From Balneolaceae bacterium (GTDB lineage Bacteria; Bacteroidota; Rhodothermia; Balneolales; Balneolaceae): DNA of 64,000 nucleotides. Where the stretch lies: assembly GCA_017640605.1 (NCBI GenBank), contig JAEPQH010000018.1, forward strand, positions 1-64,000, read 5' to 3'. Position numbers and translations under genes: made by a program. Positions within the stretch are counted from its first letter, which is position 1. Every line of letters begins with the position of its first letter. The notes beneath the pieces were generated by a model. The model was not told where the DNA came from and did no database searches. It saw only the letters and a program-made list of their open reading frames with translations. Shown piece by piece: positions 16,498 to 33,129 of the stretch.

Positions 16498-16998
16498 ATG
16501 GCGGGATATACCGAACTCTTACAAACTATGCTTGCAATGGTCATCGTCTCATTTCTGGTGATTAATGCAAATCGTGCAATACTTGTTAATACAGAGACCA
16601 TGGTTGAAGGTGAATTAGAAAATCAAGTAATAGCTATAGCACAGGATTTTATTGAAGAATCGAGATCAACCACATTCGATGCAGAAACCGTGGGTGGTAA
16701 CGTACCGGTTAATATTCCTGATGGATTTTCGAGCATCGGTCCTGGCAGCGGTGAAACCTCGAGAGCCGATTTTAACGACTTTGATGATTATGATGGCTGG
16801 ACTGAGACGATCATAGCCTCCGGTGGTATTGAATATGAAGTGAGTATTGAGGTTTCATACTTCAAAAACGGTGCACCAACCAACACTAAATCTACCTTAA
16901 AACAAATGACGGTAACCGTTTCTTCGGATGATCTTACCAACAATGGCACCACAAAAACTTATACATTTAAATTTTTAAGAAGCTTTTACGCAGATTGA
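16498..16998 (+). CDS. PilV-like minor pilin protein, leaderless (cassette 1)
   Basis: This 166-residue protein has one N-terminal hydrophobic helix (about residues 7-25) followed by an amphipathic helix and a soluble beta-rich domain, the architecture of type IV minor pilins. It lacks the basic leader and G/F cleavage site of classical prepilins and starts MAGYTELLQTML. If the initiator Met is removed, Glu falls at position 5, where mature type IV pilins carry their conserved Glu5. The position in a trio with PilW-like and PilX-like proteins supports a PilV-like role. It is paralogous to the protein at 18834-19253. The PilW-like gene follows after one base. A short dyad CGATA.TATCG lies upstream at 16466-16476. 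Confidence 0.75.
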   Translation: MAGYTELLQTMLAMVIVSFLVINANRAILVNTETMVEGELENQVIAIAQDFIEESRSTTFDAETVGGNVPVNIPDGFSSIGPGSGETSRADFNDFDDYDGWTETIIASGGIEYEVSIEVSYFKNGAPTNTKSTLKQMTVTVSSDDLTNNGTTKTYTFKFLRSFYAD

Positions 16999-16999
16999 T

Positions 17000-17614
17000 A
17001 TGGATTTAGGAGTAGTAATCAGTTATATCATTGCCGGAATTCTCATCGTCATCATCGTTACAGTTGGTTACAATGTAAATTACAGTAGCAACGAATTAAC
17101 TTTGCAAGAAACCCAAAAAAGTAAAGTAGGTGCTGTAATTGAAACATTGAATTATGATTTGCCAAAAATCGGATATAATCAAAATGCTTTACCCGATACA
17201 CTAATTCTACAGGCAGACTCGACATTAATCAGCTTTTACTCAAACATTGATAATAGTGCTGATGGCTCCTTAGAATTAATTACCTGGGAGTACACAAATG
17301 CAGAAATTACAGAAACAGAAAATCCTGATGATCACTATATTACCCGAACGATTAATGGGATAACCTCTACAATAGGTGGAGGAATCACTCGATTTCGAAT
17401 CAATTATTACGACGAATTAGGTTCAACCTCTCCCCTATCTGTTCCAATTTCTGCGGTTTCTAATAAATCACTAATAGATTCAATTGTTCAAATTGAAATT
17501 ATTATAGAAAGTGGTAGCGCTATTGGCTTGCAATATCTCGGAAATACAAATAAAAATTATATGGCCACTGCTTGGACAAAGCGATACTCGCCATCTAACC
17601 TGAATATAAATTAG
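17000..17614 (+). CDS. PilW-like minor pilin protein, leaderless (cassette 1)
   Basis: This 204-residue protein starts with a hydrophobic helix right at the N terminus (MDLGVVISYIIAGILIVIIV). It continues with a long amphipathic helix ending in a LNYDLPKIGYN segment that resembles the (L..DLR.AGY) signature after the helix of PilW. No prepilin leader is present. It is paralogous to 19256-19837, sharing the helix pattern, a DYY/DHY segment followed by R/T-rich strands, and a C-terminal W.KR segment before the end. Its start is one base after the preceding stop, and the PilX-like gene follows 8 bases later, so the trio is co-translated. Confidence 0.75.
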   Translation: MDLGVVISYIIAGILIVIIVTVGYNVNYSSNELTLQETQKSKVGAVIETLNYDLPKIGYNQNALPDTLILQADSTLISFYSNIDNSADGSLELITWEYTNAEITETENPDDHYITRTINGITSTIGGGITRFRINYYDELGSTSPLSVPISAVSNKSLIDSIVQIEIIIESGSAIGLQYLGNTNKNYMATAWTKRYSPSNLNIN

Positions 17615-17622
17615 GAGTTATT

Positions 17623-18726
17623 ATGGGAAGAGGAATGATAATAATGGCTTTAGGCTCCTTTCTGGTATTAGGCTTAGTAAAAACCAGTTTATTTGATCAG
17701 AGAGAACGTATTCAAGGATTCAATTCTGATTATGCGAAAGATATTCAAGCTAAAAATGTTGCCCATACAGCCATTCAATTGGCCATGGAGCAAATTAATG
17801 AAGATCCATCATGGCACCCAACCTCAGCTAATCCCTGGGTTCAGGAAATTGATGGAGCACATGTTGAATTATTTTATGAAGTATTAGCTACTGGGGCTAC
17901 CCCAACAGATCCAGATAGCATTAGAATATTCAGTAATTCTTGGTACGGCGGCCAGGGCTCTTTAGGTAGTAATTCATATAAAGCTGATTCCGAGACCCAT
18001 TCAATTATCAGTACCTATCTAAAAACGGGTTTACATTTTGTACCCGAACCAGCAGGTGGGCTTGGCTTAGCTAGTGGAAATTTCAGATTTAATATGAGTG
18101 GAAGTGCGACTATTAGTGGTAACGACGCCAGTGGAACTTGCGCCGATATACCTGCAGTTACTGTACCTACTTTTTCTGATTATACTGAAGTTCTAGCAGG
18201 CGCAAAATTATCAAATCTAGAAAGTGATGAAGATTTGATCTCCATTGACCCTGATATTTCATACAGCCCCGTTGATGAATTAATAGCTCGTTTAAGTAAC
18301 CAACCTGGTGTTGTAGAAGTTAGCGGTAATTATAAAGGAGATTTTGGCAGCGTTGATGATCCAGGTGTGTTTTTTGTTGATTCCTATGCAAAATTGACCG
18401 GTGGTGTCCCTGAAGGGTATGGGATTTTAGTAATTCGATCAGGGGGTGAACTGGAATATGAAGGGGCATTGAGTGTAGCTGGTAATTTCACTTTCAATGG
18501 GTTAATTATTTTTGAAAATGCTTTCGACTTTACTGGTAGAGGGACTCCTGATTTGAATGGTTCCGTACTAATTGGAAATACCCCCGGAAACAATACGACA
18601 CTTGATATTGATCTTGGGGGTAGTATTCAAATTCAGTACGATTGCGAAGCTATTGATTACGCAAGAGTTGCTTCTGCTTCTCATCTTAAACAAAATAGAT
18701 ATAGCAGAGTAAGTACATTTGAATAA
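17623..18726 (+). CDS. PilX-like minor pilin protein with autotransporter-like C-terminal domain (cassette 1)
   Basis: This 367-residue protein begins MGRGMIIMALGSFLVLGL, a short basic start and hydrophobic helix. An alanine-rich helix (residues ~40-60) follows, the pattern seen at the N terminus of PilX and GspK family proteins. The C-terminal half has polymer-forming beta-strand repeats (GILVIRSGGELEYEGALSV, GNFTFNGLIIFENA, LNGSVLIG), as often found in PilX-like proteins of non-proteobacteria. A clear AGGAG ribosome binding site lies at 17613-17617, unusual for this clade and repeated before the cassette 2 homologue. The gene is paralogous to 19847-21319. Confidence 0.75.
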   Translation: MGRGMIIMALGSFLVLGLVKTSLFDQRERIQGFNSDYAKDIQAKNVAHTAIQLAMEQINEDPSWHPTSANPWVQEIDGAHVELFYEVLATGATPTDPDSIRIFSNSWYGGQGSLGSNSYKADSETHSIISTYLKTGLHFVPEPAGGLGLASGNFRFNMSGSATISGNDASGTCADIPAVTVPTFSDYTEVLAGAKLSNLESDEDLISIDPDISYSPVDELIARLSNQPGVVEVSGNYKGDFGSVDDPGVFFVDSYAKLTGGVPEGYGILVIRSGGELEYEGALSVAGNFTFNGLIIFENAFDFTGRGTPDLNGSVLIGNTPGNNTTLDIDLGGSIQIQYDCEAIDYARVASASHLKQNRYSRVSTFE

Positions 18727-18768
18727 CAAATTCTAATGTACTTATCGGTTATCTACCTACTTATTAAA

Positions 18769-18794
18769 GTAAACTAATAGCATAATAAGTTTAC
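18769..18794. promoter_or_regulatory. Inverted repeat between pilin cassettes
   Basis: GTAAACT (18769-18775) and AGTTTAC (18788-18794) form a perfect 7-base inverted repeat with a 12-base spacer, in the 107-base gap between the two pilin-like cassettes. It may be an operator or a weak RNA hairpin. It is not followed by a T-run, so it is not a standard terminator. Confidence 0.45.
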
Positions 18795-18802
18795 GAATAG
18801 TA

Positions 18803-18832
18803 GATTTATTACAATAATAAAAGTAATAAATC
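18803..18832 (+). promoter_or_regulatory. Hairpin abutting the start codon of cassette 2
   Basis: GATTTATTAC (18803-18812) and GTAATAAATC (18823-18832) form a perfect 10-base inverted repeat with a 10-base spacer. It ends one base before the ATG at 18834. In RNA it would be an AU-rich stem occupying the usual ribosome landing region. It may tune translation of cassette 2 relative to cassette 1, or bind a protein as an operator. Confidence 0.5.
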
Positions 18833-18833
18833 A

Positions 18834-19253
18834 ATGAGCAGTTACGCTGAGTTAACATATTTGATTGGAGCGATGGTTATTTTTGGGTTTCTATCCTTAA
18901 ATACCGCACGAAGTTTCAACTCAAACCGACAGGCAATTTACCAAGCCGAAGCCGAATACCGTGCAATTGCTGTTGCTCAGGACGAATTGGATAAAGTGCA
19001 ATGGATATATGATTCCGACGAATTAGATCCAAGTAGTGGTAACTATGTATACTCAAGCTACCCTATTGAAGAAGTACATAATTACGGATCGAGTGATCAA
19101 TACAGTTCTACTTTTATCATAAATGGTACTTCAGAATTAATTGAGGATACCGGTTCGATGAAAAAATACCAGGTAACGGTTTCTGTACTCAATCAGAATG
19201 TAACACCCGAAGTATTTATTACCTTAGAATACGTTAAATCCTACACCTACTAG
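18834..19253 (+). CDS. PilV-like minor pilin protein, leaderless (cassette 2)
   Basis: This 139-residue protein has the same architecture as 16498-16998. The N terminus MSSYAELTYLIGAMVIFGFL is directly hydrophobic, with Glu at position 6 (position 5 after Met removal) and a Tyr two residues before it, exactly as in the cassette 1 protein. A helix (EAEYRAIAVAQDELDKVQ) and a short beta domain ending in EYVKSY follow, comparable to the FKFLRSFY end of its paralogue. Two bases separate it from the next gene. No prepilin peptidase or assembly ATPase gene is in the window. Confidence 0.75.
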   Translation: MSSYAELTYLIGAMVIFGFLSLNTARSFNSNRQAIYQAEAEYRAIAVAQDELDKVQWIYDSDELDPSSGNYVYSSYPIEEVHNYGSSDQYSSTFIINGTSELIEDTGSMKKYQVTVSVLNQNVTPEVFITLEYVKSYTY

Positions 19254-19255
19254 CC

Positions 19256-19837
19256 ATGAATGCAGGACTAGCCATAACATTTGTGATTGGTGGATTATTC
19301 ATGATTTCGATCCTGAATTTCAACGCTCAGGTTATAAATCAAACACAGGAACTAACACTTAACACCATCAACCAATCGAATTTAGACAACTTGGTGGATG
19401 TACTTGCAAACGATTTTAACAAGATTGGTTTTAACGCCGGCACAGCGGTCCCTTTTACTACAATAGGTGATCAAAATATAATTTTTCAGGCTGATGTGTA
19501 TGATAATGACAGCTATGGATCTACAAATATACGTTGGTATTTCGACACCAGTGATGCCGTAAACAGCACCAATCCAAACGATTATTATTTAAAAAGAGTG
19601 GGTCCGATTGGCACCAACTCGTACGGAACCATTGAGTTTCCGGTAGTTTATTTCGATTTGAATTACTACACAGCGGACGGTACTCCAACAACTACGTTGG
19701 CCTCTGTTAAAAAAATCGAAGTTGAATTAATGGTTGAAACAGTAGAACCATACACAGTTAATAACGGGAATCAGCAATATCCTAGATTAATCTGGAAACG
19801 AATTTTTGTACCGAACAATATCAACTTACCATATTAA
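19256..19837 (+). CDS. PilW-like minor pilin protein, leaderless (cassette 2)
   Basis: This 193-residue paralogue of 17000-17614 has an N-terminal hydrophobic helix (MNAGLAITFVIGGLFMISIL). The amphipathic helix ends in LANDFNKIGFNAG, equivalent to LNYDLPKIGYN in cassette 1. A beta-rich domain follows with NPNDYYLKR and a C-terminal LIWKRIF segment equivalent to TAWTKRY in cassette 1. It is the middle gene of the second trio. The shared order and conserved junction spacing show that the whole trio was duplicated as a unit. Confidence 0.75.
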   Translation: MNAGLAITFVIGGLFMISILNFNAQVINQTQELTLNTINQSNLDNLVDVLANDFNKIGFNAGTAVPFTTIGDQNIIFQADVYDNDSYGSTNIRWYFDTSDAVNSTNPNDYYLKRVGPIGTNSYGTIEFPVVYFDLNYYTADGTPTTTLASVKKIEVELMVETVEPYTVNNGNQQYPRLIWKRIFVPNNINLPY

Positions 19838-19846
19838 GGAGCAGTT

Positions 19847-21319
19847 ATGGGAAGAAGTTTATTATTCTTAGTAAGCGGACTTACAATTTTAACGGGGATT
19901 GTGCAGGTAAACAACCAAGACCGTGTGGCCGAAATACCTGTTGTAACTACCGATTATTACAAGGCGCAACAAGCCAGAAATCTGTCTAAAAGTTTAATCG
20001 ACAATGCGGTTGAAACGATGAAAGACAATAACAACTGGGTAGGCAGCATCGACATAGATGAGGTAGTGGATACCAAAGCTTTACTATCACGCTCGAATGA
20101 AGGTCGAAAAAAACTAAGCCTTGGATTAATGGAACTCGACGAAGTTATTGCTATTGAACAACAAACTGAAGAATTATTGGATCAATCCGGAATCACCATT
20201 CCAATTAATTTAGAAGGCTCACTTAGCAGCTATACCCAAGACAGCCAAAACAAACCGAACAATAGTGTAGGTAGTTGGGACGAATATAAAGTACTGCTGG
20301 TAAGTTCAAGCACATACGATGATATTGAAGTGACTACCGAAGTGTTGATGCAACGAGATTCCTTTAGTAAGTATTCCTACATGACTCAATCTGAGTTAGC
20401 TGCTAATGGCTCTACCATTTGGTTTATGGATCAGGATAACATTTATGGCCCAATCCATACCAATGGGCAATTCGCGATGTCTGGTGCACCCTCTTTTTAT
20501 GGATTGGTTACGAGCCCAAATATGTGGCGAGCTCACAGTACCAACCCAACAAATCCTAACTTTTATGGTGGAGAAAACTTCAACGCACCGCTAAAAAGTG
20601 AACCTACTAGTTACGAAATTAATCGACTTGTTGCTGCTGCTAACGATGGTGGGAAAAGATACTCAGGGGATATTGATGTAGATTTTTACTATGATTCAGA
20701 TCATGGCTATGCTGATATTTCTTATGGTGGCTCACCTGGGAATGGTTGTGCTAACTGGATGTGGTGGTGTACTCCCATTCCACCAACACCCCCCACTGTT
20801 GAAACGGTGAACCTGGCCGACATTAATGGTGTGATTTCTACCGACGGTGAAATTGACGTAGAAGGTGAAGTTAGCGGGAGTGTTACTTTGCATTCAGAGG
20901 ATAGAATCGAAATTATGGGAGATATCACGTACCGCGTTAACCCCCTTGCCGATTCAACGTCTGCCGATCTACTCGGTTTGGTAAGCGAAGGAGATGTTGT
21001 AGTTGATCGATATGCCCATTCGGCTAATGGTTCGCAAGATTTAACCATTCATGCATCTATTGTAGCGCTAAATACCTCTTTTACCGTAGAAAACTATAAT
21101 TCTGGTGGTAGCAAAGGTACACTAAATATGTTAGGTGGAATCATTCAACAAAATCGTGGACCAGTTGGCACCTTCTCCGGAAGTACGGTAGTTTCCGGCT
21201 ACATCAAGAATTACCAGTACGACAACCGGTTAAAGGCAACTATTCCACCATCATTCCCAAGAGAAAGTGTTTTCTCAATTGTATACTGGAAAGACGAAGT
21301 AAACAAAAGCAATAACTAA
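19847..21319 (+). CDS. PilX-like minor pilin protein, enlarged (cassette 2)
   Basis: This 490-residue paralogue of 17623-18726 starts MGRSLLFLVSGLTILTGIV and continues with a YYKAQQARNLSKSLIDNAVE helix. It is preceded by AAGGAG at 19836-19841, the same strong ribosome binding site as in cassette 1. The middle contains FMDQDNIYGPIHTNGQFAMSG, and the C-terminal part has GEVSGSVTLHSEDRIEIMGDITY and repeated strands, a polymer-forming fold. A CANWMWWCTPIPPTPP segment (around 20748-20790) has two Cys that could form a disulphide. It probably sits at the tip or base of a pilus-like fibre, by analogy with PilX/GspK; this is inference. Confidence 0.75.
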   Translation: MGRSLLFLVSGLTILTGIVQVNNQDRVAEIPVVTTDYYKAQQARNLSKSLIDNAVETMKDNNNWVGSIDIDEVVDTKALLSRSNEGRKKLSLGLMELDEVIAIEQQTEELLDQSGITIPINLEGSLSSYTQDSQNKPNNSVGSWDEYKVLLVSSSTYDDIEVTTEVLMQRDSFSKYSYMTQSELAANGSTIWFMDQDNIYGPIHTNGQFAMSGAPSFYGLVTSPNMWRAHSTNPTNPNFYGGENFNAPLKSEPTSYEINRLVAAANDGGKRYSGDIDVDFYYDSDHGYADISYGGSPGNGCANWMWWCTPIPPTPPTVETVNLADINGVISTDGEIDVEGEVSGSVTLHSEDRIEIMGDITYRVNPLADSTSADLLGLVSEGDVVVDRYAHSANGSQDLTIHASIVALNTSFTVENYNSGGSKGTLNMLGGIIQQNRGPVGTFSGSTVVSGYIKNYQYDNRLKATIPPSFPRESVFSIVYWKDEVNKSNN

Positions 21320-21805: not shown

Positions 21806-22303
21806 ATGATAAGGCACTTTTTCACATTTATTTTCTTATTTATTTTCAGTGCTTTAGTACAAGCTCAGGATAATAATGTAACTGCCAATATTAATATTGA
21901 AGCAAATGTTATTCAGTCTATTGAGTTGATAACTGTAAATTCTATGACATTTGGTAACACTCAACCCGGTCAAGAAGTTATTTATGTGAATCCAATCACT
22001 GATTTAAATGCGGGTTACATGATTGCTTATGGTACTCCGGGAGCAGAATTCCGCTTAGATTATGAATTAAACAGACAACTAACTCGTATTGAAGGGGAAG
22101 GATTTTTAAATTTCCGCTACGAACTTTCAGCAAACTCAATTGAAGATCAAACTAGTTCAGAACTAATCGAATACGAAAATCGAAACCTAAGATTTAATTC
22201 TGAAGGCATTTATTATATATGGGTTGGCGGTGAAGTAAATCTAGAAAATGCACGTCCGGGAAACTACGAAGGCGACTTTACTATAGAAATCGATTACATC
22301 TGA
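21806..22303 (+). CDS. DUF4402 pilin-like subunit 1
   Basis: This 165-residue protein has a signal peptide ending ALVQAQ, then the N-terminal strand NVTANINIEANV. It has the DUF4402 hallmark MTFGNTQPG, where the Phe-Gly follows the first strand. The C terminus ends GNYEGDFTIEIDYI: Tyr is penultimate and Gly is 14th from the end, the signature of chaperone-usher pilus subunits recognised by PapD-type chaperones. It is the first of four such genes upstream of a chaperone and usher. A TAACTTTAG box at 21780-21788 could be a promoter remnant, but its spacing to an upstream TTG is short. Confidence 0.85.
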   Translation: MIRHFFTFIFLFIFSALVQAQDNNVTANINIEANVIQSIELITVNSMTFGNTQPGQEVIYVNPITDLNAGYMIAYGTPGAEFRLDYELNRQLTRIEGEGFLNFRYELSANSIEDQTSSELIEYENRNLRFNSEGIYYIWVGGEVNLENARPGNYEGDFTIEIDYI

Positions 22304-22304
22304 T

Positions 22305-22892
22305 ATGAGATTAGTAATTGTTACCATTTTAAGCGTATTATTTTCTTTGAGCAGCCTTGCTCAAGAGATTGATTTTGGTGACTATAGCGCACTATACTCG
22401 ATTAGTTTGACAGAACTAAGTCCTGGAATGAACCTAAATTTTGGTACTGTTGCTGATAATGAAGGACTTGTTTCGATTGACATTAATGATGCTAAAATAT
22501 ATGCAATTGAAGGAGTGAAATATCTAGATATAATAGTAGATATTACTGCAGATCAATTTTTATTACTTGACGGGAATCTATCCTATGCATCAGATCCTAC
22601 TCGGAGAATTGAACTGACAATGGCTGCTGCTTACGCTAACATGGGTATTCAAGATCCTAGCCAAGCAATTATTTTTAATGTTTTTGGAACAACAGCCAGT
22701 GCTCAGTTTCCTATCAAATATCGTGGAAACGCCCCTCCTGGCCCACCACCAACTCCTGTTTATCAAGGCTATGACCCTACTGTTTTCAATGAAACAGCGT
22801 ATCTATATATATATGCCTCAATAAATCTTCCAGGAGGTATTGTCGCAGGAAGCTATACTGGAAATATTAATGTGAGTATAAGTTATGATTAA
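22305..22892 (+). CDS. DUF4402-like pilin subunit 2
   Basis: This 195-residue secreted protein starts one base after subunit 1. The signal peptide ends SSLAQ. The domain contains LNFGTVADNEG, the equivalent of the DUF4402 FG turn, a proline-rich loop (PPGPPPTPVYQG) and a C terminus GSYTGNINVSISYD. Gly is 14th from the end and Tyr is penultimate, as expected of a chaperone-usher subunit. It is more diverged than the fourth subunit and may be a minor or tip subunit. Its end overlaps subunit 3 by eight bases. Confidence 0.8.
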   Translation: MRLVIVTILSVLFSLSSLAQEIDFGDYSALYSISLTELSPGMNLNFGTVADNEGLVSIDINDAKIYAIEGVKYLDIIVDITADQFLLLDGNLSYASDPTRRIELTMAAAYANMGIQDPSQAIIFNVFGTTASAQFPIKYRGNAPPGPPPTPVYQGYDPTVFNETAYLYIYASINLPGGIVAGSYTGNINVSISYD

Positions 22893-23415
22893 CTTGAAAC
22901 TCATCTTAGCATTATCGATCAGTATATTTTTTAGTTCAAACACTCTTGCACAGTTTATTAATCTTCAGATTAGAGTCGAACCTGAGCTAAGTGCGACGGT
23001 TGAACAAGACCTAAATTTTGGTCAGCTTGTTGTAAATTCTGGCCCTTCTATTATCGAACTCGGAGATATTAACATGGGCATCTTCAATATTCGTTCCTAC
23101 TATACTCAAAACGTTTTTGTTCAATTACAGGTTCCTGATGCTTTGACCCATATTAACCCAGCTATAAATGACGTTATCCCACTTGAATTGGGAGTAGCAT
23201 ACAACAACTCTGGGACACGAAATTTAGATGAAAGTATTATTTTATCAGAAAATTTTGGGTTTTTACCAATATACAGTGCCACTAGCACGGGTTATACTAC
23301 CAACACTGAAATCTGGCAAGAAATGTATCTATATGTTTTCGGTTCAATAATTATTGGTAATGTTAATGAAGGTGAATACAACGGTGAAGTTACCTTACTG
23401 ATAGAGTATGATTAA
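22885..23415 (+). CDS. DUF4402-like pilin subunit 3
   Basis: This 176-residue secreted protein has a signal peptide ending SNTLAQ and an N-terminal strand of alternating hydrophobics (FINLQIRVEPELSATV) suitable as a donor strand. LNFGQLVVNSG is its FG turn. The C terminus EGEYNGEVTLLIEYD again has Gly 14th from the end and Tyr penultimate. Its ATG lies within the end of subunit 2 (overlap ATGATTAA), indicating translational coupling of subunits 1-3. It is probably a minor pilin. Confidence 0.8.
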   Translation: MINLKLILALSISIFFSSNTLAQFINLQIRVEPELSATVEQDLNFGQLVVNSGPSIIELGDINMGIFNIRSYYTQNVFVQLQVPDALTHINPAINDVIPLELGVAYNNSGTRNLDESIILSENFGFLPIYSATSTGYTTNTEIWQEMYLYVFGSIIIGNVNEGEYNGEVTLLIEYD

Positions 23416-23519: not shown

Positions 23520-24056
23520 ATGAAAAATTTAAAAAACCTTCTTTCGATTTTTGCTGTAGCAGGTCTGTTTGCAACTGGTGCTTTCGCACAATCAACAAGT
23601 GAGAATGCTACTGTTTCTGCTGAAGCTTCAATTGTATCAGCAATTACCGTTGCTAATAATGCTGATCTTCTTTTTGGAGATATTTTAACTTCAGAAACTC
23701 CTACAATAGCAGCTACTGCAGCTAATGCTGGATCTGTTAGTATTACTGGTGCAACTAATGGCCAAACCTTAAATATCTCAGCGGTATTTCCTGCGACTCT
23801 TACAGATGGAACTCCTGCTAATGATCTAGATCTAGGTTCCTACGACATTGCTGTCCGTACTGATGGTACCGACGATGCTACTGGGGCTACATCACCAGGA
23901 GATGAGGCGACTGCAACACAAACAGTTACTGGTTCTTTCACAGCTACAACAAACACCATGTATGTATACGTAGGTGCTCAAATCACAGACGCATCAAGCG
24001 GTGTTGCTGGTAATGATTATTCAAATGACATTACTGTGACTATTTCTTACAATTAA
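23520..24056 (+). CDS. DUF4402 pilin, probable major subunit
   Basis: This 178-residue secreted protein has a signal peptide ending ATGAFAQ, a small, Ala/Thr-rich mature domain and the donor-strand-like segment ENATVSAEASIVSAITV. LLFGDILTS is the DUF4402 turn, and the C terminus GNDYSNDITVTISYN has a penultimate Tyr; the matching Gly is 15th rather than 14th from the end. The low-complexity, compact composition, its own putative promoter and the strong terminator right after it suggest the abundant shaft subunit. It is the subunit nearest the chaperone and usher genes. Confidence 0.88.
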   Translation: MKNLKNLLSIFAVAGLFATGAFAQSTSENATVSAEASIVSAITVANNADLLFGDILTSETPTIAATAANAGSVSITGATNGQTLNISAVFPATLTDGTPANDLDLGSYDIAVRTDGTDDATGATSPGDEATATQTVTGSFTATTNTMYVYVGAQITDASSGVAGNDYSNDITVTISYN

Positions 24057-24073: not shown

Positions 24074-24113
24074 AAAAGTCTCATTGTTTCTATGACAATG
24101 AGACTTTTTTTTT
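24074..24113 (+). terminator. Rho-independent terminator after the major pilin
   Basis: AAAAGTCTCATTGT and ACAATGAGACTTTT form a perfect 14-base stem with a 7-base loop, extended by a T-run. It separates the abundant pilin transcript from the chaperone-usher-motor operon. Confidence 0.9.
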
Positions 24114-24220
24114 ATGTATTGTTTTATAAATCTTATAATACTCTATATAAAATAAAGATTGGTACAATTTTCCATTTTTTTAGTTAAGTTTTGACCACAT
24201 TGATATATCATCCTACTATA

Positions 24221-25057
24221 ATGAAGAATATTCGACTTTACGCGGTTATTGCTTTTTTTGTGCTGTCCCCTCTTTATTTAAATGCGCAAGTCACCATTGC
24301 ACCTACAAACATGTTCATTGATGGTAATGCCAGATTTGGAACATACATGGTGATAAATAATTCGAATGAAACGCAGGAAATTTCTATTGATTTCCTTTTT
24401 GCATACAGCCAAACTGACGAACAAGGCAACAGAAGTATAATACAAGATGACTCTGCAGCGGCCGAGCAATATTCAATCGCTGAATTCATTCGTGCTTTTC
24501 CTCGAAACTTCACACTAGCTTCTGGTCAAAGGCAAGTTGTACGACTGAGATTAAATCCACCAAATGACTTAGAAGATGGAACCTATTGGGCTAGAATTAA
24601 AACAGGTTCTACTCCAGAATCACCTCCATTAGAACTCCAATCAAATAATGCGGTAGCTGCACGTGTAGGTATTAGAGTTGAGCAAGTAACCGGACTTTTT
24701 TTTAAAAAAGGGAATACTACTACTGGAATAGAAGTAACAGAAATATCTACAGAGTACGATCAACTAACTGATAAGTTAAACGTTTATATTGATATAAACA
24801 GAACTGGCAACAGTCCTTTTCTCGGTTCTATTACAACATCATTAATAAATGAAAATGGTGAAATAGTTCGCGAAAGTTTTATTTCTACCTCGATTTATTT
24901 TGATGGGGTACAAAAGAGTGAATTTGATATTGCGGATATCCCAAATGGACAATATACCATAAGAGTGCAATTTGAAAGTTCACGTGCAGACATTCCTAGT
25001 TCAGATATTATCCAAATGCCTACTGTCATCGAAACAACAACATTTACCAAGCGTTGA
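24221..25057 (+). CDS. PapD-like periplasmic pilus chaperone
   Basis: This protein (278 residues from the ATG at 24221) has a signal peptide ending LYLNAQ. The upstream TTG at 24191 would add a non-signal-like extension. The N-terminal immunoglobulin-like domain shows the PapD pattern: VTIAPTNMFIDG, a Y.VINNSNETQEISIDF strand, then FPRNFTLASGQRQVVRLR and L.DGTYWARIKT. In the family this domain caps pilus subunits by donor-strand complementation and delivers them to the usher. The position of PapD Arg8 appears to be Asn here by my hand alignment, while an Arg in AARVGIRVE may replace Lys112. Its stop overlaps the usher start in TTGA, so the two are coupled. Confidence 0.88.
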   Translation: MKNIRLYAVIAFFVLSPLYLNAQVTIAPTNMFIDGNARFGTYMVINNSNETQEISIDFLFAYSQTDEQGNRSIIQDDSAAAEQYSIAEFIRAFPRNFTLASGQRQVVRLRLNPPNDLEDGTYWARIKTGSTPESPPLELQSNNAVAARVGIRVEQVTGLFFKKGNTTTGIEVTEISTEYDQLTDKLNVYIDINRTGNSPFLGSITTSLINENGEIVRESFISTSIYFDGVQKSEFDIADIPNGQYTIRVQFESSRADIPSSDIIQMPTVIETTTFTKR

Positions 25058-28050
25058 TTCTTTGGAAAACAAAAAACTTATTTATTTTTCTCTTCATTTT
25101 CGTATGCATGCAGCTTCAAAGCACGCATGTAAACGCACAAGATGAAGATTTTTTTGAAGTCTACCTAGACTTTAAGCATCGTGGTGTTATCAATAATGTT
25201 GTAATCTCCTATTACGATGGTGAACAATTCTTTTTACCATTGGTTGAGTTGTTCAATCTATTCCAAATTGAAGCTAATGTAAATGGTTTAGTGATTTCGG
25301 GCAGATATTCAATTGAACAAACCCCTTATTCAATTGACCTTTCTCGTCCTTCAATTAGTTTTAATGGGAAAACCTATGAATTAACTTCCGATCAATATTA
25401 CATTACTGAGCTTGATTACCATTTCCCGCCTAAACTTTTTAGTGAGATTTTCGGATTAAATTTCTCTGTTGATATAAATAACCTTTCCTTACGCCTAGAG
25501 ACCAATGAAGAAATACCAATCATCGCAAAGACATTAAGGGATCAAAAACGAAGGTTAGCTAACAATAATCGAGTTCAAACGGATTTTTATCCTCTTGAAT
25601 ATGATCGAGAATATAAAATTTTTGATGGTGGATTCATGGATTACTCGATGTCAAGTACTATACAACCAGACATTACAACTTTTAGTTATAATAGCGCAGT
25701 TGGTCTACAACTTGCAGGTGGTGATTTACAGGGAAGTTTCTTTGGAAATATTTCGTCTGATGTTTCTGCATTAGAAACTAACAACTTACGCTGGAGAACT
25801 ATCATAAGAAATAAACCTTGGATCAGTAATATTACAATTGGGCAATCCAATATGGACGGTGTTTTAATGAATCGATACACGGGTATCCGTTTAACTAATG
25901 ACCCTGTTGAACCAAGACGTTTATTTGATGAATTTGAAATACAAGGAACCACTTTTCCTCAATCTGAAATAGAATTGTATCTCAACAATGGTCTAATTGA
26001 TTTTCAACAAGCTGATGAGTTAGGCAATTATCGCTTTTTAACCCCTTTATACTATGGCTCCACACAGCTTGATCTTAGAATTTATGGACCTACTGGGCAA
26101 ATAGTAACTCGTTCATCTAGAGTGCAAGTTCCATTCACATTTAATCCAAAAGGGGAGTTTAATTATAGGATTAATGCCGGGGTATTAGATAATGCATTTA
26201 TTGGTAGTACAGTCCGTAACAGAATGTTTCAAGCGAATGGTTCGTATGGTGTAACTAAATGGCTTACATCAAAATTTGGGGTTGAATATTTTACCGAAGA
26301 GCTTGGGAGAGAAACTCCATATTTTACAGGTACATTATCATCCCGTATTTCTTCAAGTTATATTTTATCTGTAGAAGGTGTAACTAATGCGTATTACAGA
26401 GCTACTCTAAATGCGATTTATCCAAGCGCAGCAAGTATTAACTTTGATTATACTAATTTCTACGCCGGAGAGAGTATTTTTAATACTACTAATAATGACC
26501 AACAACTAACTAGCTCAATATTCGTACCTTTAAGATTATTCAAACTTCCATTTAATTTGAGGTTATCTAATTTTTCTCGCTCTAGAGAAGGAACTACTAC
26601 AAATAGCATCCGCTTTGATGTAAACTCACGCATAAATAAATTAAACTTAAGAGTTGGCTATTCTGATCGTTTGATTGATACTTTCAATCCATTTAATTCA
26701 ACACAAGGTAATACATTAGAAGGTTCAGCGACTTATACTATATCGCGTAATCCAAACATTCCAACTGTATTAAGAGGTACTTTTTTAAGGGCTCAACTAA
26801 GGTTCTTACCTGAACAGAATGAGCTTCAAAACGCCGAATTTCTTTTTTCGAAAAATGTATTCCAAGTTGGAAGGCTTCAAGTTTCTGTTGGTCGCAATTT
26901 TATTTCAGAATTCAATACCATAAGAGCAAACTTTGTTATTGATTTCAAAAGAATCAGAAGCAATACTACTGTTACAACTATCAGAAACAGTATTAGTACT
27001 TCACAAAACATTCGAGGGTCAGTTGGTTATGACTCGAATTTCAAAAATTTTATTCTAACAAGTAGAGATCAAGTAGGGAGGTCTGGAGCAGCTATCCAAA
27101 TTTTTGCTGATAGAAATGGAAACGGAACTTTTGATGAAGATGATGAGCTACTTCCTGAAGTTAGTATGAGAATTGGAAGAAATGGTTCACAATACATGTA
27201 TAAAAATGGGGTATTGTATTACACTCAAATGCGACCCTATTTTAGATACAATATGGAGATGAACACCTCCACTATTAAAAACCCTATGCTTGTTCCTGGT
27301 TTGGATAAATTCTCTATGATAACTGATCCTAATAGTTTTAAGCCTATAAGTATTCCCTTTAATATAAGTGGTGTTATGGAGGGAATTGTTGAACGGCAGT
27401 ACAACGACGGCCAAACTCAAGGTATTGGTGGTTTAAAAGTTTTACTCAACGAAAAAGGAGAATCAGAAACAAAAGAGTTGAGAACATTTTCGGATGGTAG
27501 TTTCTACGAATACCCTATCTCTCCAGGGCAATACAATATTAAAGTTGATCCAACACAACTCAGTTTGCTTCAAACCAGATCAGTTCCAGAGGAAATTGAT
27601 TTTGAAGTAAAAGTTACCCCCGATGGTGATTACGTGGAAGGAATTAATTTTAGATTATTACCGCTTGAAGACGCCGAATCATCCCAAGAAGATAGTCTTG
27701 CCGCGCTCACTATTGCACAGGTTACCGACGAGATAAAATCGTCGCCAGAAATATTAGAATATTCTCAGGAAGTATTTAAAGAAGTTGATAATGCTTTAAG
27801 GCTCATAATCAAAGCTCAAAACGCCTTTTATTCTAACAACATAGACTTAGCCTTCCGCTATGTTAACGAATCATTAGAACTTTTTGAAACTGCACAAGCA
27901 CACGCTTTAAAGGGAAGTTTTTATTATTTTGAAGGTAACATCGATCAGGCGCAACGACATTGGGAACAGGCACTCCGATTTAACCCCGACCTTGTAATTC
28001 CGGATATGGAAGTACTTGAAGAGAGGGTGAATAGGCGTGCATCAGATTAA
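25054..28050 (+). CDS. Outer-membrane fimbrial usher with C-terminal TPR domain
   Basis: This 998-residue protein starts at TTG 25054 and has a signal peptide ending THVNAQ. Residues ~30-170 form an N-terminal region of short strands (VYLDFKHRGVINNVVISYY). A long beta-barrel region (about 180-770) is interrupted by a plug-like domain with QGTTFPQSEIELYLNNGLI and GNYRFLTPLYYGSTQLDLRIYGP.G, a classic usher signature. A carboxypeptidase-regulatory-like domain follows (about 770-880). The last ~100 residues are TPR (NNIDLAFRYVNESLELFET.QAHALKGS.YY..GNIDQAQRHWEQAL), unusual for ushers, which are normally ~800-870 residues without TPR. It should form the outer-membrane pore for DUF4402 subunits. 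The TPR module recurs in the lipoprotein at 29904-30431. Confidence 0.88.
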   Translation: MILWKTKNLFIFLFIFVCMQLQSTHVNAQDEDFFEVYLDFKHRGVINNVVISYYDGEQFFLPLVELFNLFQIEANVNGLVISGRYSIEQTPYSIDLSRPSISFNGKTYELTSDQYYITELDYHFPPKLFSEIFGLNFSVDINNLSLRLETNEEIPIIAKTLRDQKRRLANNNRVQTDFYPLEYDREYKIFDGGFMDYSMSSTIQPDITTFSYNSAVGLQLAGGDLQGSFFGNISSDVSALETNNLRWRTIIRNKPWISNITIGQSNMDGVLMNRYTGIRLTNDPVEPRRLFDEFEIQGTTFPQSEIELYLNNGLIDFQQADELGNYRFLTPLYYGSTQLDLRIYGPTGQIVTRSSRVQVPFTFNPKGEFNYRINAGVLDNAFIGSTVRNRMFQANGSYGVTKWLTSKFGVEYFTEELGRETPYFTGTLSSRISSSYILSVEGVTNAYYRATLNAIYPSAASINFDYTNFYAGESIFNTTNNDQQLTSSIFVPLRLFKLPFNLRLSNFSRSREGTTTNSIRFDVNSRINKLNLRVGYSDRLIDTFNPFNSTQGNTLEGSATYTISRNPNIPTVLRGTFLRAQLRFLPEQNELQNAEFLFSKNVFQVGRLQVSVGRNFISEFNTIRANFVIDFKRIRSNTTVTTIRNSISTSQNIRGSVGYDSNFKNFILTSRDQVGRSGAAIQIFADRNGNGTFDEDDELLPEVSMRIGRNGSQYMYKNGVLYYTQMRPYFRYNMEMNTSTIKNPMLVPGLDKFSMITDPNSFKPISIPFNISGVMEGIVERQYNDGQTQGIGGLKVLLNEKGESETKELRTFSDGSFYEYPISPGQYNIKVDPTQLSLLQTRSVPEEIDFEVKVTPDGDYVEGINFRLLPLEDAESSQEDSLAALTIAQVTDEIKSSPEILEYSQEVFKEVDNALRLIIKAQNAFYSNNIDLAFRYVNESLELFETAQAHALKGSFYYFEGNIDQAQRHWEQALRFNPDLVIPDMEVLEERVNRRASD

Positions 28051-28051
28051 A

Positions 28052-29890
28052 ATGCACAGAATACGTCACATATTTGACTCTATGCTTGCCAAAATTTTAA
28101 CCAATTTTGGCGTGAAATTACTAGCTCTTCTATTTTTAACAACTTGTTTCCTTGCATCTACCGACATTAGCGCTCAAACAGCATTTGATCCATCAAGTTC
28201 TCAATCTCTTGAACTACGCGTTGCCAATCTGGAACAACAGTATGATTCCCAAATCATCCAAATTCTTTCAAATTACTTTAATCGAAAAAAATTTTTTATC
28301 GATGTAAATATTAATGCTGAGCTGATCGATCAAACGATAGGTACTACCAGTAATCAAGTAGTAGAATCGAGTCAACAAGAGCAGAATCTATTCATGCCGG
28401 GCCTTCCCTTCTTGCCTGAACAAAATCTTCGTCAGCCTGCTAACCGTAACCGACAGCCTGAAACTATTGTAAACGAAAATACCATAAAAACGCTGCGTAT
28501 CGTTAACATGAGCGTTAATATTTATGCAGATACTTCGGTTACTACCGCTCAGCTTGAGTTAATGCGATTTATTACAGGAATCGCAGTAAAAATCAACGAG
28601 GCTCGAGGTGATGAAATCACCATATCTCAATTAGCCATCCCAGATTATACTGAGGCCCCCGAACCTGTTACGGCTACTACTGTTGTACAACAGCCTACTG
28701 CGCCCGATTACAACTCCATCTACACTTATATTCCTGCTTTGGCATTAATGCTGCTATTTGGGCTTACACTTTTGTTTAACAAATTGATGAACAAGCCCCA
28801 GACCCAAATCCCCCTTCGGGATTATCGGGATACATTTAAAAATGATATGGGCTTGCAACAACAGTCGGCACAACCTTTTTCCAGCACTGAGCAAGTAAAG
28901 GGTGATATTGAGCAAAGTGATGAGGACATGACTACCGAAGATATTGTGAATGCATTTTTTACTAAGCCTGAGGAGATTGCCACTATTTTCAGGTATTGGT
29001 TAAGTGAAGAAGAAAACGGGGCTAAAAAAGCTGCTGAATATTTAGTGGCTGTCGACAAACATCTGCTCCGAACTTTAAAAAAGGAACTTCATCCCGAAGA
29101 TTACGACAGCCTGAGCGATGCTTTATTGGAACTCGAGGAATTAGCGCCAGAGCGGCGAGCAGAAATTGTAGAAGAGTTTGCACGAATGCTTCAACAAGGT
29201 GCTAAACAAACCGTATCTGAGAAAAAACGAAGTAAATTTTCATTATTCAAATTCCTCGATCACATTTCGGATAAGCATATTCTCACGTTACTAGAAACAG
29301 AAGACAGCCTCTCCGGTGCTTTTATACTTCAGTATATCCCGGATGATAAAGCTGCATTACTGATCGAAAAATTAGACAAAGAAATTGCCGCTAAAATCAT
29401 GTTGCATATGGCATCGTTGAATAATTTAACCAACGATCAGCAGCAAAAGATATCGTCAGAACTCTTCGACAAAGCCATGGATTTAGTGGAAGCTGAACGA
29501 AGCGAGCAATATGGTGCTGAACACCTCTATCCTATTTTAGAACGACTTCCGGTACACGAACAACAACGTTATATTGATGAGTTAAAAGCTACAGGCTCGA
29601 TAGTTGGAGCCATCCTGGAAAAGCAGTTTATTACTATCGATCGTTTACCTGAGTTAAGTGATGAAATCATTAAAAAAGCCGTTCGAACACTTAATACAGA
29701 AACATTACTAGACGCAATTGTTGGGTTACCTCCTCAAGTTGTGGATCGAATTTTATCTGCGCGACCTACGCGAGAACAACGTTTATTACGCATGGAACTT
29801 GAAGAGCTTCAAGGAACGCCCGGTCGCCAAACCGAATATGCTAAGGCTCTCTTAATGAATTCTATCCGCAAGAATGCGAATGACAAATAA
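28052..29890 (+). CDS. FliF/FliG-like single-chain rotor protein
   Basis: Residue numbers count from the possible GTG at 28037 (617 residues). The ATG at 28052, one base after the usher stop, is my chosen start; the ATG at 28082 is also possible. A signal-anchor (~17-40) precedes a region like the FliF C-terminal periplasmic RBM3 (about 66-203: LEQQYDSQIIQILSNYF, FIDVNINAEL, RIVNMSVNIYAD, then the FliF/YscJ-type ending ARGDEITISQLAIPD). A second membrane helix is at 229-249. The cytoplasmic part resembles FliG: N-like ~298-385, M-like ~400-485, C-like ~495-612. R579, E587 and R597 occupy positions like the torque-helix charges Arg281, Asp289 and Arg297 of E. coli FliG by hand alignment. It would form an inner-membrane ring turned by the adjacent MotA/MotB. 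No other flagellar gene is nearby. Confidence 0.82.
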   Translation: MHRIRHIFDSMLAKILTNFGVKLLALLFLTTCFLASTDISAQTAFDPSSSQSLELRVANLEQQYDSQIIQILSNYFNRKKFFIDVNINAELIDQTIGTTSNQVVESSQQEQNLFMPGLPFLPEQNLRQPANRNRQPETIVNENTIKTLRIVNMSVNIYADTSVTTAQLELMRFITGIAVKINEARGDEITISQLAIPDYTEAPEPVTATTVVQQPTAPDYNSIYTYIPALALMLLFGLTLLFNKLMNKPQTQIPLRDYRDTFKNDMGLQQQSAQPFSSTEQVKGDIEQSDEDMTTEDIVNAFFTKPEEIATIFRYWLSEEENGAKKAAEYLVAVDKHLLRTLKKELHPEDYDSLSDALLELEELAPERRAEIVEEFARMLQQGAKQTVSEKKRSKFSLFKFLDHISDKHILTLLETEDSLSGAFILQYIPDDKAALLIEKLDKEIAAKIMLHMASLNNLTNDQQQKISSELFDKAMDLVEAERSEQYGAEHLYPILERLPVHEQQRYIDELKATGSIVGAILEKQFITIDRLPELSDEIIKKAVRTLNTETLLDAIVGLPPQVVDRILSARPTREQRLLRMELEELQGTPGRQTEYAKALLMNSIRKNANDK

Positions 29891-29903
29891 AGTACAGGTA
29901 AAA

Positions 29904-30431
29904 ATGAAACATAGACCTGCTTTTGCGTTTTTTTTGATTCTTTCGGTACTCTTGATTCATTGTGCATCCAGCAATCAATCCATTGATCCGATAGTTGAAC
30001 AAGGCACGATCTCGCCGGAAGATTCCCTTCAACTGGCAATACAAGATAGTTTGGAACAAGCCCAGGCTAAAGAAGAAGAACTTCGTGAAGCTCTCATCGA
30101 ATTATATAAAGATGAGATCTATTCAAGATATCAAGCACAAGCGAATACCCTTACAAACTACTATATACTTGCTCAACAGCACTTTTATACCGGCGATTTT
30201 GAAAATGCGCTCTTCCTGATCAACCGCGCTGCACTTATCAAAGAAAATGCTGATGTGTTAGCCTTACGTGGTAGTATTTATCTTGGATTGGGATATATCA
30301 ATGAATTTGTGAGTCACTGGCGAAGAGCTCTTGAAATGGACCCTTCTGTTCCCATACCTTCTTCCACCTACATTATTCAGCAACTTCAGAATAATGGATT
30401 AATCGATGAAAATTTAACAAAGAGCTTTTAA
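29904..30431 (+). CDS. TPR-containing lipoprotein
   Basis: This 175-residue protein starts at ATG 29904, which gives a lipoprotein signal peptide (MKHRPAFAFF..) with lipobox LLIHC and Cys20; upstream starts at 29874 and 29880 would only lengthen the n-region. A charged coiled segment (QAKEEELREALIELYKDEI) is followed by a TPR pair: AQQHFYTGDFENALFLINRA, then LALRGSIYLGLGYI and HWRRALEMDPSVPIP. This TPR matches the C terminus of the usher at 25054-28050, including the HW..AL..(N/D)P core. It lies 13 bases after the rotor gene and 7 bases before the motA-like gene. I infer a periplasmic link between motor and usher. Confidence 0.85.
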   Translation: MKHRPAFAFFLILSVLLIHCASSNQSIDPIVEQGTISPEDSLQLAIQDSLEQAQAKEEELREALIELYKDEIYSRYQAQANTLTNYYILAQQHFYTGDFENALFLINRAALIKENADVLALRGSIYLGLGYINEFVSHWRRALEMDPSVPIPSSTYIIQQLQNNGLIDENLTKSF

Positions 30432-31245: not shown

Positions 31246-33129
31246 GTGAAGAAAAAGAAACCAATAAGAATTAAATATTCGCTTTTTCCACTACCGGATG
31301 AGGAAGCTGATGATGATGAGAGCTGGCAAGTAAGTTATCTTGATATCATTACAATCGTATTGGGGTTTCTGATTATTTTGCTTTCTGTCTCACAAATTAC
31401 GAAGTCAGAATTTTCTTCTCTTTCATCCATTTTTGGTAAACTAGCGGATGAAACTGAGTTTTTAACCACTCCCATAGGAGCCATTGAACGAGAATTATTC
31501 GGATTGTTGGAGCCCGAAATTGAAGCCGGTAATCTGGAAATCATTCGTGATTTAAATGATCTAAGAATTCGTTTTAAAAGTGACGACCTTTATGATCCGG
31601 GCAGAGCTCAATTAGATCCGGATTCTGAACAACTTCTTAATACTGTGTTGATAGCTTTGCAACAGGTTAAGTACAACGATTTCTTAATTGATGTTGAAGG
31701 ACATACCGACAATACTCCGATCTCATCGGTGGCTTACCCCTCAAATTGGGAGCTTTCAACTGCAAGAGCAGCAAACGTAGTTAAGTATTTTAATGATGCT
31801 GGAATCCCTGCCAACCGACTTAAAGCATCTGGTTATGCAGATTCTCGTCCGGTAATTGAATATGATTCTTTAGGTTTTCCATTCGCGGCCAGCAAAGAAA
31901 AAAATCGCCGAGTGGTACTAAGGCTTTATTACTCATCTGATAATTTAAATGAAGAAATTCTTACACAACCGGAAGCTGATGACGTATTGTTAATTGCCGA
32001 AACTGAATCAGGGACTCCTGAAAGTTTGAGTAATGATATTCCAGGTATTTCTGAGCTCCCTCCTCCCGATCCGAATGAAAACGTTGTGATATTAGCTGAA
32101 GAGCCAGCTTTACTTACGGTGATGGAAGAAAACCGAATCCGGAATCAGTTAGCAGCTGAACAACAAGATGAAACACCAGCAACTGACGATGTTAATTCAG
32201 ATTCAGGTCGACAACAAGCTAACGAAACTGATGAGCCTCAGAACGATCGTGAAAGTGTTACACAAGAGCCTGTTTCTCAAGCTGAAGAAGAACTAGAACC
32301 AGTTGAGCAATCAGAGCCGGAACCATCTGCTACAGAAATTCCATCATCAAGTAATGCAATGCCATCGTTGTTGCGAGTGGATGCTCGATGCCAGTATTCG
32401 GTGCAACTTGGTGAGTTTTCTGCTTTACAAACGGCATTTCAACGAGCTGATGCGATAGAATCATCAAACTTAACGGATGTGATACTCACTTATAACACCA
32501 ACGAATATTCGGTTAGAACATCTCCTACTTCTTCGTTTACGGAGGTTGTAAGCTTACGAAATGAATTATCATCAAGAATTAATGATAAAAGTGTAAGTGT
32601 TGTTCATCAGTGTTACAACAATACCATTCAGCGGCCGAAACCAGTAAAATATCTCATTCAATTTGGTGCATTTCAAACTCGTGCTAATGGCTTAGATTAC
32701 ACCATCGAATTGTTAGATCAATACGGTGTACAAGCTTATATGAATCGGGTTTCTGATACTTTTAATGTGCTTACCGGACCATATGAGTCGCGAGAAGTAG
32801 TTCTAGAACAATTACGCACTTTCAGGGAGATGGGAATTTCTTCAAATCTATTTATTCGTCACCAACCGGAAACAGCTGCTACGTATAAATATGCTTACCA
32901 AATTCAAGTTGACGAACTGAGTAACCGACAAGAGGCCAATGAACTAGCACAACAAGTACGATCGAGAACAGGCATAAATACCCGCGTAGAAGAACTAGTT
33001 AGTGGTCGATATTCTGTAATGACGGGACAATCAGTAAATCGAAATGAAACTCAAACCATTTTCAATCGATTATTGAATTCCGGCTTTTCAATAGAACCTA
33101 TTATTTTTTACTTAGAGTATATTCCTTAA
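31246..33129 (+). CDS. MotB-like stator protein with OmpA domain and SPOR-like repeats
   Basis: This 627-residue protein starts at GTG 31246. The single N-terminal helix has W.VSYLDIITIVLGFLIILLS, with Asp33 at the place of the essential Asp32 of E. coli MotB. Residues ~115-225 are an OmpA/MotB peptidoglycan-binding domain (VEGHTDNTPISS, NWELSTARAANVVKYF, LKASGYADSRPV, NRRVVLRL). An acidic, proline-rich linker (~230-375) leads to three tandem SPOR-like repeats (from ~383, ~465 and ~545; cores YSVQLGEFSAL, YLIQFGAFQTR and YQIQVDELSNR). MotB proteins are usually ~300 residues without SPOR. The repeats may bind denuded septal glycan or an accessory factor. This is the last gene of the motor operon. 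Confidence 0.9.
   Translation: MKKKKPIRIKYSLFPLPDEEADDDESWQVSYLDIITIVLGFLIILLSVSQITKSEFSSLSSIFGKLADETEFLTTPIGAIERELFGLLEPEIEAGNLEIIRDLNDLRIRFKSDDLYDPGRAQLDPDSEQLLNTVLIALQQVKYNDFLIDVEGHTDNTPISSVAYPSNWELSTARAANVVKYFNDAGIPANRLKASGYADSRPVIEYDSLGFPFAASKEKNRRVVLRLYYSSDNLNEEILTQPEADDVLLIAETESGTPESLSNDIPGISELPPPDPNENVVILAEEPALLTVMEENRIRNQLAAEQQDETPATDDVNSDSGRQQANETDEPQNDRESVTQEPVSQAEEELEPVEQSEPEPSATEIPSSSNAMPSLLRVDARCQYSVQLGEFSALQTAFQRADAIESSNLTDVILTYNTNEYSVRTSPTSSFTEVVSLRNELSSRINDKSVSVVHQCYNNTIQRPKPVKYLIQFGAFQTRANGLDYTIELLDQYGVQAYMNRVSDTFNVLTGPYESREVVLEQLRTFREMGISSNLFIRHQPETAATYKYAYQIQVDELSNRQEANELAQQVRSRTGINTRVEELVSGRYSVMTGQSVNRNETQTIFNRLLNSGFSIEPIIFYLEYIP

Follow-up and report, generated by a model that had tools for sequence, protein, structure and literature searches.

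The window, that is, the whole stretch of 64,000 nucleotides that was analysed, carries a conserved and flagellum-independent motor cassette placed within a chaperone-usher locus, and as a genetic system this cassette is well supported. At its core lies FliFG, a predicted single-chain rotor in which the ring-building domain of FliF is followed by a transmembrane helix and the three domains of FliG, and its gene is the middle one of a conserved operon encoding chaperone, usher, FliFG, TPR lipoprotein, MotA and MotB (Table 1). The reading that we favour, with a probability of about 0.6, is a machine spanning the envelope, with a flagellar-type rotary motor that would drive an outer-membrane usher (pilus) platform. 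The original prediction was partly right and too narrow, as it missed the chaperone-usher operon around the rotor.

Table 1 Features of the usher-rotor operon in the window.
Feature	Position (nt)	Strand	Details
Three small exported pilin-like proteins	21806-23415 (21806-22303, 22305-22892, 22885-23415)	+	signal peptides
Fourth exported pilin-like protein	23520-24056	+	conserved position before chaperone
Terminator-like hairpin, 15 bp stem and T run	24074-24108	+	pattern scan; between last subunit gene and chaperone
PapD-like periplasmic chaperone (probable)	24191-25057	+	TTG start, or ATG at 24221
Outer-membrane usher, 998 aa, with extra C-terminal TPR domain	25054-28050	+	AF2 and Foldseek
TPR tail of usher	27745-28035	+	usher aa 898-994, ~100 residues
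FliFG fused rotor	28052-29890	+	612 aa from ATG; 617 aa if GTG 28037 is used
RBM3-like ring-building domain of FliFG, periplasmic	28187-28642	+	aa 46-197; profile-profile and superposition
Transmembrane helix of FliFG	28718-28789	+	aa 223-246; hydropathy and AF2 helix
FliG_N domain of FliFG	29018-29293	+	aa 323-414; Pfam E 2.9e-9
FliG_M domain of FliFG	29273-29488	+	aa 408-479; Pfam E 2.8e-8
FliG_C torque domain of FliFG	29615-29881	+	aa 522-610; Pfam E 7.7e-10; holds R574 and E582
TPR lipoprotein	29874-30431	+	ATG at 29904 likely; lipobox-like LLIHC; TPR matches
MotA-type stator subunit, 265 aa	30439-31236	+	MotA_ExbB 7.6e-17
MotB-type stator subunit	31246-33129	+	TM with ion-site Asp, OmpA-like domain, ~260-aa SPOR tail

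The FliFG reading frame is intact and closes at position 29890. Its three FliG domains exceed their Pfam gathering scores in the window protein and are found in 17/17 members of the fused-rotor family (best FliG_C 1.4e-21), which bears out the cytoplasmic FliG N, M and C blocks of the original prediction. A profile of the family retrieved FliG 1lkv from the PDB at E 1.4e-26, and TIGR00207 (fliG) matched the window protein at E 1.9e-13, short of its equivalog cut-off. For the FliF part, YscJ_FliF_C was the one Pfam profile of the expected FliF and FliG set that stayed, narrowly, under its gathering score in the window protein (E 0.0077); it was matched in 10 of the 17 members (best 3e-4), and TIGR00206 (fliF) gave E 4e-4 with 19 bits set against a cut-off of 129.75. 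Profile-profile comparison aligned the periplasmic part with residues 227-417 of flagellar FliF, corresponding to RBM3, with a probability of 93.8 and an E of 1.7e-7, while the control with an unrelated alignment reached a probability of 0.5. In the AF2 model the periplasmic domain displays an alpha-beta-beta-alpha-beta arrangement with two long strands, and a Foldseek search with the FliFG model returned 31 PDB matches at E<=1e-3, all 31 of them FliG or FliF. Residues 46-197 superpose on FliF RBM3 (residues 228-438) with VIA Z scores of 13.4 (1.8 Å over 99 residues, 6sd1) to 14.4, the deviation being 1.8-2.0 Å over about 100 residues. Similarly, the modelled FliG_M and FliG_C parts fit their counterparts within 1.9 Å over 79 residues and 2.3 Å over 87 residues, the latter in agreement with the FliG_C fold that had been anticipated, and the model fits MotAB-bound FliG (8ucs) within 2.5 Å over 85 residues. 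The LPGLPF-P and RGD motifs of the RBM3-like domain are conserved across the 17-member alignment, and RBM1 and RBM2, both part of full-length FliF, are absent from FliFG. At the level of profiles and modelled structure, the 612-residue frame is thus confirmed as a single chain of FliF RBM3, transmembrane helix and FliG N, M and C, and the RBM3-like segment and FliF-FliG-like rotor that had been proposed both hold.

The membrane topology and the torque residues required revision. Two membrane helices had been proposed, and the one at residues 223-246 stands. The N-terminal hydrophobic stretch, previously taken for a signal-anchor, closes with AQ in nearly every member, and a cleaved signal peptide is a likelier reading of it than a further membrane anchor; such cleavage would leave FliFG with a single transmembrane helix. 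The alternative GTG start at 28037 lies inside the end of the usher gene, and since the original numbering was counted from it, those residue numbers are five above the present ones. Three torque-helix charges had been assigned by hand, R579, E587 and R597. The first two, here R574 and E582, align with R281 and D289 of E. coli FliG and are invariant in the 17 members, whereas the third was not retained, as E. coli R297 aligns with P590 and the fused groups show no conserved charge at this position. The FliG charge pairs of the fused rotor differ from those of E. coli, where the torque-helix charges are R281, D288/D289 and R297. Of the FliM-binding EHPQ motif of FliG_M the window protein keeps E417 only, the H, P and Q being lost across the fused groups.

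The rotor gene is embedded in a run of pilin-like genes, hairpin, chaperone, usher, FliFG, TPR lipoprotein, MotA and MotB, with several overlaps of a few bases, and the order of the operon genes does not vary among the rotor loci with enough flank. The small exported proteins at the head of the run gave two sub-threshold DUF4402 matches (0.0012 and 0.031), and the 22885 protein has none in Pfam. Orthologues of the first three occupy the same position in other loci, some of them exceeding the DUF4402 cut-off, and orthologues of the fourth (L035, L050, L100) match DUF4402 at 1.5e-8 to 6e-6, the fourth protein being probably the major pilus subunit. The hairpin that follows it could possibly act as an attenuator setting the ratio of subunits to usher. 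The next protein is a probable PapD-like chaperone: PapD_N matches weakly in three of nine orthologues (best 0.0029) and the PDB holds no sequence match, but the gene precedes that of the usher in all loci where it was seen, the two overlapping by four bases. Chaperone and subunit identities, both drawn from weak matches, are accordingly put as probable. Upstream of the pilus genes, positions 16498-19837 encode several small proteins whose hydrophobic N-terminal helices resemble those of pseudopilins, and a DUF4900 protein comes next at 19847-21319. Further upstream, at 11379-16397, lies a 1672-residue exported repeat protein whose end motif resembles a type IX secretion sorting tail (YPNPFNPSTNITF...).

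For the usher, profile searches of Pfam and the PDB were uninformative, and its identity came from the fold search alone. The AF2 model (pLDDT 76) matched FimD 3rfz with a Foldseek E of 1.6e-27, the top 19 matches were all ushers, and VIA gave Z scores up to 23.4. On its modelled structure the 998-residue protein is an usher of the FimD/PapC fold. TPR_2 is detected in the tail of all ten usher orthologues, and this tail resembles the TPR domain of the downstream lipoprotein; a TPR homologous to that of the lipoprotein occurs in all rotor loci. Elsewhere, two stop codons interrupt the frame of an usher relative, L151 (G304:C33).

The stator genes complete the operon. MotA is recognised by the MotP, MotA and PomA models with E 1e-22 to 1e-30, compared with 0.04 for exbB, and it keeps the equivalents of the E. 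coli gating prolines P173 and P222. Basic residues lie near the position of R90, the equivalent of E98 is a glutamine and not an acidic residue, and K264 is not conserved in the usher-linked group when aligned with E. coli. A MotA tree including ExbB and TolQ had long branches and gave no resolved placement. MotB matches MotB_plug (1.6e-7), OmpA (5.3e-16) and SPOR (5.5e-14), and its ion-site Asp, within SYLDIIT, is aligned in all members. The window genome also encodes, on another contig (L044, C11), a 461-residue protein with a weak MotA_ExbB match that is possibly ZorA-like.

To follow the association between rotor and usher, profiles of both were run against 102 genomes of the order. A rotor-family gene lies directly downstream of 24/24 ushers with a TPR tail and of 0/43 tailless ushers, two of which, both in G441, end at a contig edge (Fisher p 1e-18, phylogeny ignored). 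The combined state of TPR tail and rotor switches about nine times on the usher tree, at least seven of the switches being forced by supported branches, so that the linkage is not that of one inherited clade. Two sister alleles, G119 and G207, have flanking genes that are 80-93% identical and ushers that are about 80% identical over residues 1-850 and unrelated thereafter. G119 continues with a TPR tail and 4.7 kb of FliFG, TPR, MotA and MotB genes, while in G207 the usher ends in a SPOR tail and the gene that comes next in both alleles follows directly. The rotorless ushers L114, L116 and L118 (G207, G101 and G097) occupy the same chromosomal site and end in SPOR arrays. The SPOR tail of rotorless ushers (Pfam 1e-12 to 1e-16) shares homology with the MotB SPOR tail of rotor alleles across about 250 residues (E to 1e-24). 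The swap thus places a peptidoglycan tether on the usher where the motor is missing and on the stator where it is present, so that an usher expected to be static would carry the tether itself and one expected to be driven would leave it to the stator. A single recent deletion fusing the usher to the MotB tail was considered and rejected as the sole account of rotor loss, since the tails, though homologous, share only about 25% identity even where the ushers share about 80%; an equally likely alternative is that cassettes were exchanged through recombination.

Three loci without FliG_C (L035, L036 and L110) keep the usher and the TPR lipoprotein and have no adjacent MotAB, and this joint absence fits a FliG_C that works with the adjacent MotAB. 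A fourth candidate (G436:C252, L108), at a contig edge, was not counted. L035:9892-11430 encodes an N-terminal LysM-like stretch, RBM3, TM and FliG_M, with FliG_C missing, while L036:9857-10888 (343 aa) and L110:9814-10635 (273 aa) encode RBM3-only proteins with signal peptide and TM beside the usher. These RBM3-only variants suggest that the RBM ring also has a role at the usher that needs no torque.

Fused rotors occur in Balneolaceae and other Balneolales, named carriers being Balneola, Aliifodinibius, Balneolaceae and one MAG labelled Rhodothermia, and also in f40, a distant family belonging to a different class of the phylum. Two arrangements are found: system U, with chaperone, usher, FliFG, TPR, MotA and MotB, and system C, with FliFG, an outer-membrane protein, TPR, MotA and MotB. 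The window genome contains both, system U on contig C16 and system C on contig C15 (L024:11183-16236), where the usher is absent from the locus. In f40 (L095, L096, L097 and L098, the last ending at a contig edge) the order of system C is rotated to outer-membrane protein, TPR, MotA, MotB and FliFG, with the fused gene last. A CsgG-like identity, suggested by the appearance of the system C protein of 361-398 residues, was dropped; apart from a weak OMP_b-brl in one member, none of 11 members matched Pfam or the PDB, and it is therefore called a predicted outer-membrane protein only.

The original prediction placed the rotor in a cell without a flagellum, which does not apply to the window genome, as its contig C21 carries FliE-FliF-FliG-FliH-FliI and following genes, MotA, FliM, FliN and FlhA. 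It does apply to 14 of the 23 genomes with a fused rotor, in which profile searches detected no FlhA, no FliG besides the fused one or ones and no FliM/N. These 14 genomes are 98-100% complete, and G031 and G211 are single contigs. G183 likewise has neither FlhA, FliM/N nor a separate FliG, and it carries systems U and C together. Thus, the fused rotor is not a part of the flagellum but persists where flagellum, export apparatus and switch are all lacking, and the FliM/N switch, which had been predicted to be dispensable, cannot be required in these genomes. In an unrooted tree, fused and flagellar FliG are split by one branch with a support of 99-100, which fits one origin of the FliF-FliG fusion. 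Described members of the family are mostly non-motile with no gliding reported (PMC9909488, PMC5167729), and a study of Fodinibius/Aliifodinibius found non-motile species with incomplete flagellar gene sets (PMC9909488). Genes of the fused motor could lie behind such incomplete flagellar gene calls.

With the flagellar rotor, composed of the FliF MS ring, the FliG C ring and MotAB, the present system has in common the RBM3 fold, FliG N, M and C, the ion-site Asp of MotB and a peptidoglycan-binding domain. In contrast to that rotor, FliFG is one chain lacking RBM1, RBM2 and the EHPQ motif and is kept in genomes without FlhA, and its locus is linked to an usher and has no FliM/N, export apparatus or rod, hook and filament genes. 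In non-flagellated Chlamydia, a shortened FliF is naturally fused to a FliG-like part; the protein has two RBMs and only the M region of FliG, and the other flagellar genes there are FliL and FlhA only (PMC4768692). FliFG differs in having RBM3 alone with FliG N, M and C, and in the MotAB and usher genes of its operon. FliF-FliG fusions have also been engineered in Salmonella and Vibrio, and in Salmonella the covalent link of MS and C rings still builds and turns the motor (PMC4768692, PMC11481574). Unlike FliFG, these fusions are artificial, contain full-length FliF and operate inside a flagellum. With chaperone-usher pili of the FimD/PapC type the locus has in common the usher fold, a probable chaperone and small exported subunits, and it differs by the TPR tail of the usher and the rotor and stator genes behind it. 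We know of no motor in classical chaperone-usher systems. An inner-membrane ion motor feeding an outer-membrane or surface system is also found in Agl-Glt gliding, GldLM/T9SS and other 5:2 ion motors. A review of these motors places FliG with the flagellar motor only and leaves ushers unmentioned (PMC9389320), FliG appears once and only as a flagellar partner in a 2025 survey of the relatives of MotAB (PMC12505986), and a search of openly licensed PMC papers found nothing joining FliG or MotAB with ushers or the Balneola clade.

In the machine that we propose, FliFG monomers would be exported and held by one transmembrane helix, their RBM3 domains would assemble them into an inner-membrane ring, and the FliG part, covalently joined to it, would form a torque ring in the cytoplasm. 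MotA/MotB units, which the OmpA-like domain and SPOR tail of MotB would fix to the peptidoglycan, would pass ions and push FliG_C, thereby turning the ring. The TPR lipoprotein, together with the usher's own TPR tail, would link the turning periplasmic ring to the usher, whose assembly product would most likely be a pilus built from the small exported proteins. That the ring assembles and generates torque, that the TPR domains form a bridge and that usher or pilus rotates are what we infer, and a rotating pilus is offered as a strong, testable hypothesis. An extended version, in which an ion-motive force rotates the usher pilus, the cassette enters and leaves usher loci to convert static tethered ushers into rotating ones and the motor also powers a second outer-membrane system, is more tentative and falls a little short of an even chance. 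Counting against a driven usher are the differences from E. coli at E98 and K264 of MotA and in the FliG charges, the weak matches behind chaperone and subunits, the mostly non-motile character of described family members and the RBM3-only variants beside ushers, which suggest that part of the role may need no torque.

The same operon order, linkage and tree switches would be explained if the motor did not spin a pilus but energised the work of the usher, with cycles of the usher or of its TPR tail that accelerate, gate or retract the secretion of subunits. System C, which pairs the same motor genes with another outer-membrane protein and has no pilin genes beside it, makes such a generic outer-membrane energiser plausible. 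We consider it nevertheless rather unlikely, as 43 sister ushers of the order are without such a motor and chaperone-usher assembly, to our knowledge, requires no ion or ATP input. The RBM3-only variants, found beside ushers without MotAB, and the MotA charge residues unlike those of E. coli would also suit a static or force-sensing FliFG scaffold linking usher and inner membrane, in which MotAB would serve as load sensor or ion leak. Since FliG_C and MotAB occur together in all full loci, and the ion-site Asp, the gating prolines and R574/E582 are conserved across distant families, this scaffold appears improbable.

Movement of outer-membrane complexes along the surface, as in Myxococcus Agl-Glt, with adhesins as the usher products, would make use of the MotAB-type motor, the peptidoglycan-binding stator, the outer-membrane partner and the adhesin-like subunits. 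Agl-Glt has, as far as we know, neither FliG nor an RBM ring, and the ring domains of FliFG argue for rotation about one axis and against lateral movement. As there is no report of gliding in Balneolaeota (PMC5167729), we regard surface motility as decidedly improbable. A flagellar remnant or accessory, a duplicated rotor feeding the flagellum of the host, might be suspected from the homology to FliG and from the flagellated window genome, yet it is contradicted by the 14 of 23 carriers devoid of FlhA, separate FliG and FliM/N, by the well-supported separation of fused and flagellar FliG and by operon partners that are an usher or another outer-membrane protein and not flagellar genes, and it is scarcely credible.

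Flagellar-type rotors built from FliG and MotAB are known from flagella. The retention of the usher-linked motor in relatives lacking any flagellum points to a pilus platform powered by ion flow, a mode not previously described; if true, a second class of organelle would be run by the same motor, and the modularity of rotary motors would be open to direct test. FliFG would offer the smallest natural MS/C-ring for reconstitution, it bears on whether motor and export apparatus arose separately, and a single locus offers natural alleles with and without the motor. For the Balneola group itself, annotations of fliG, fliF and motAB need not mean that a flagellum is present.
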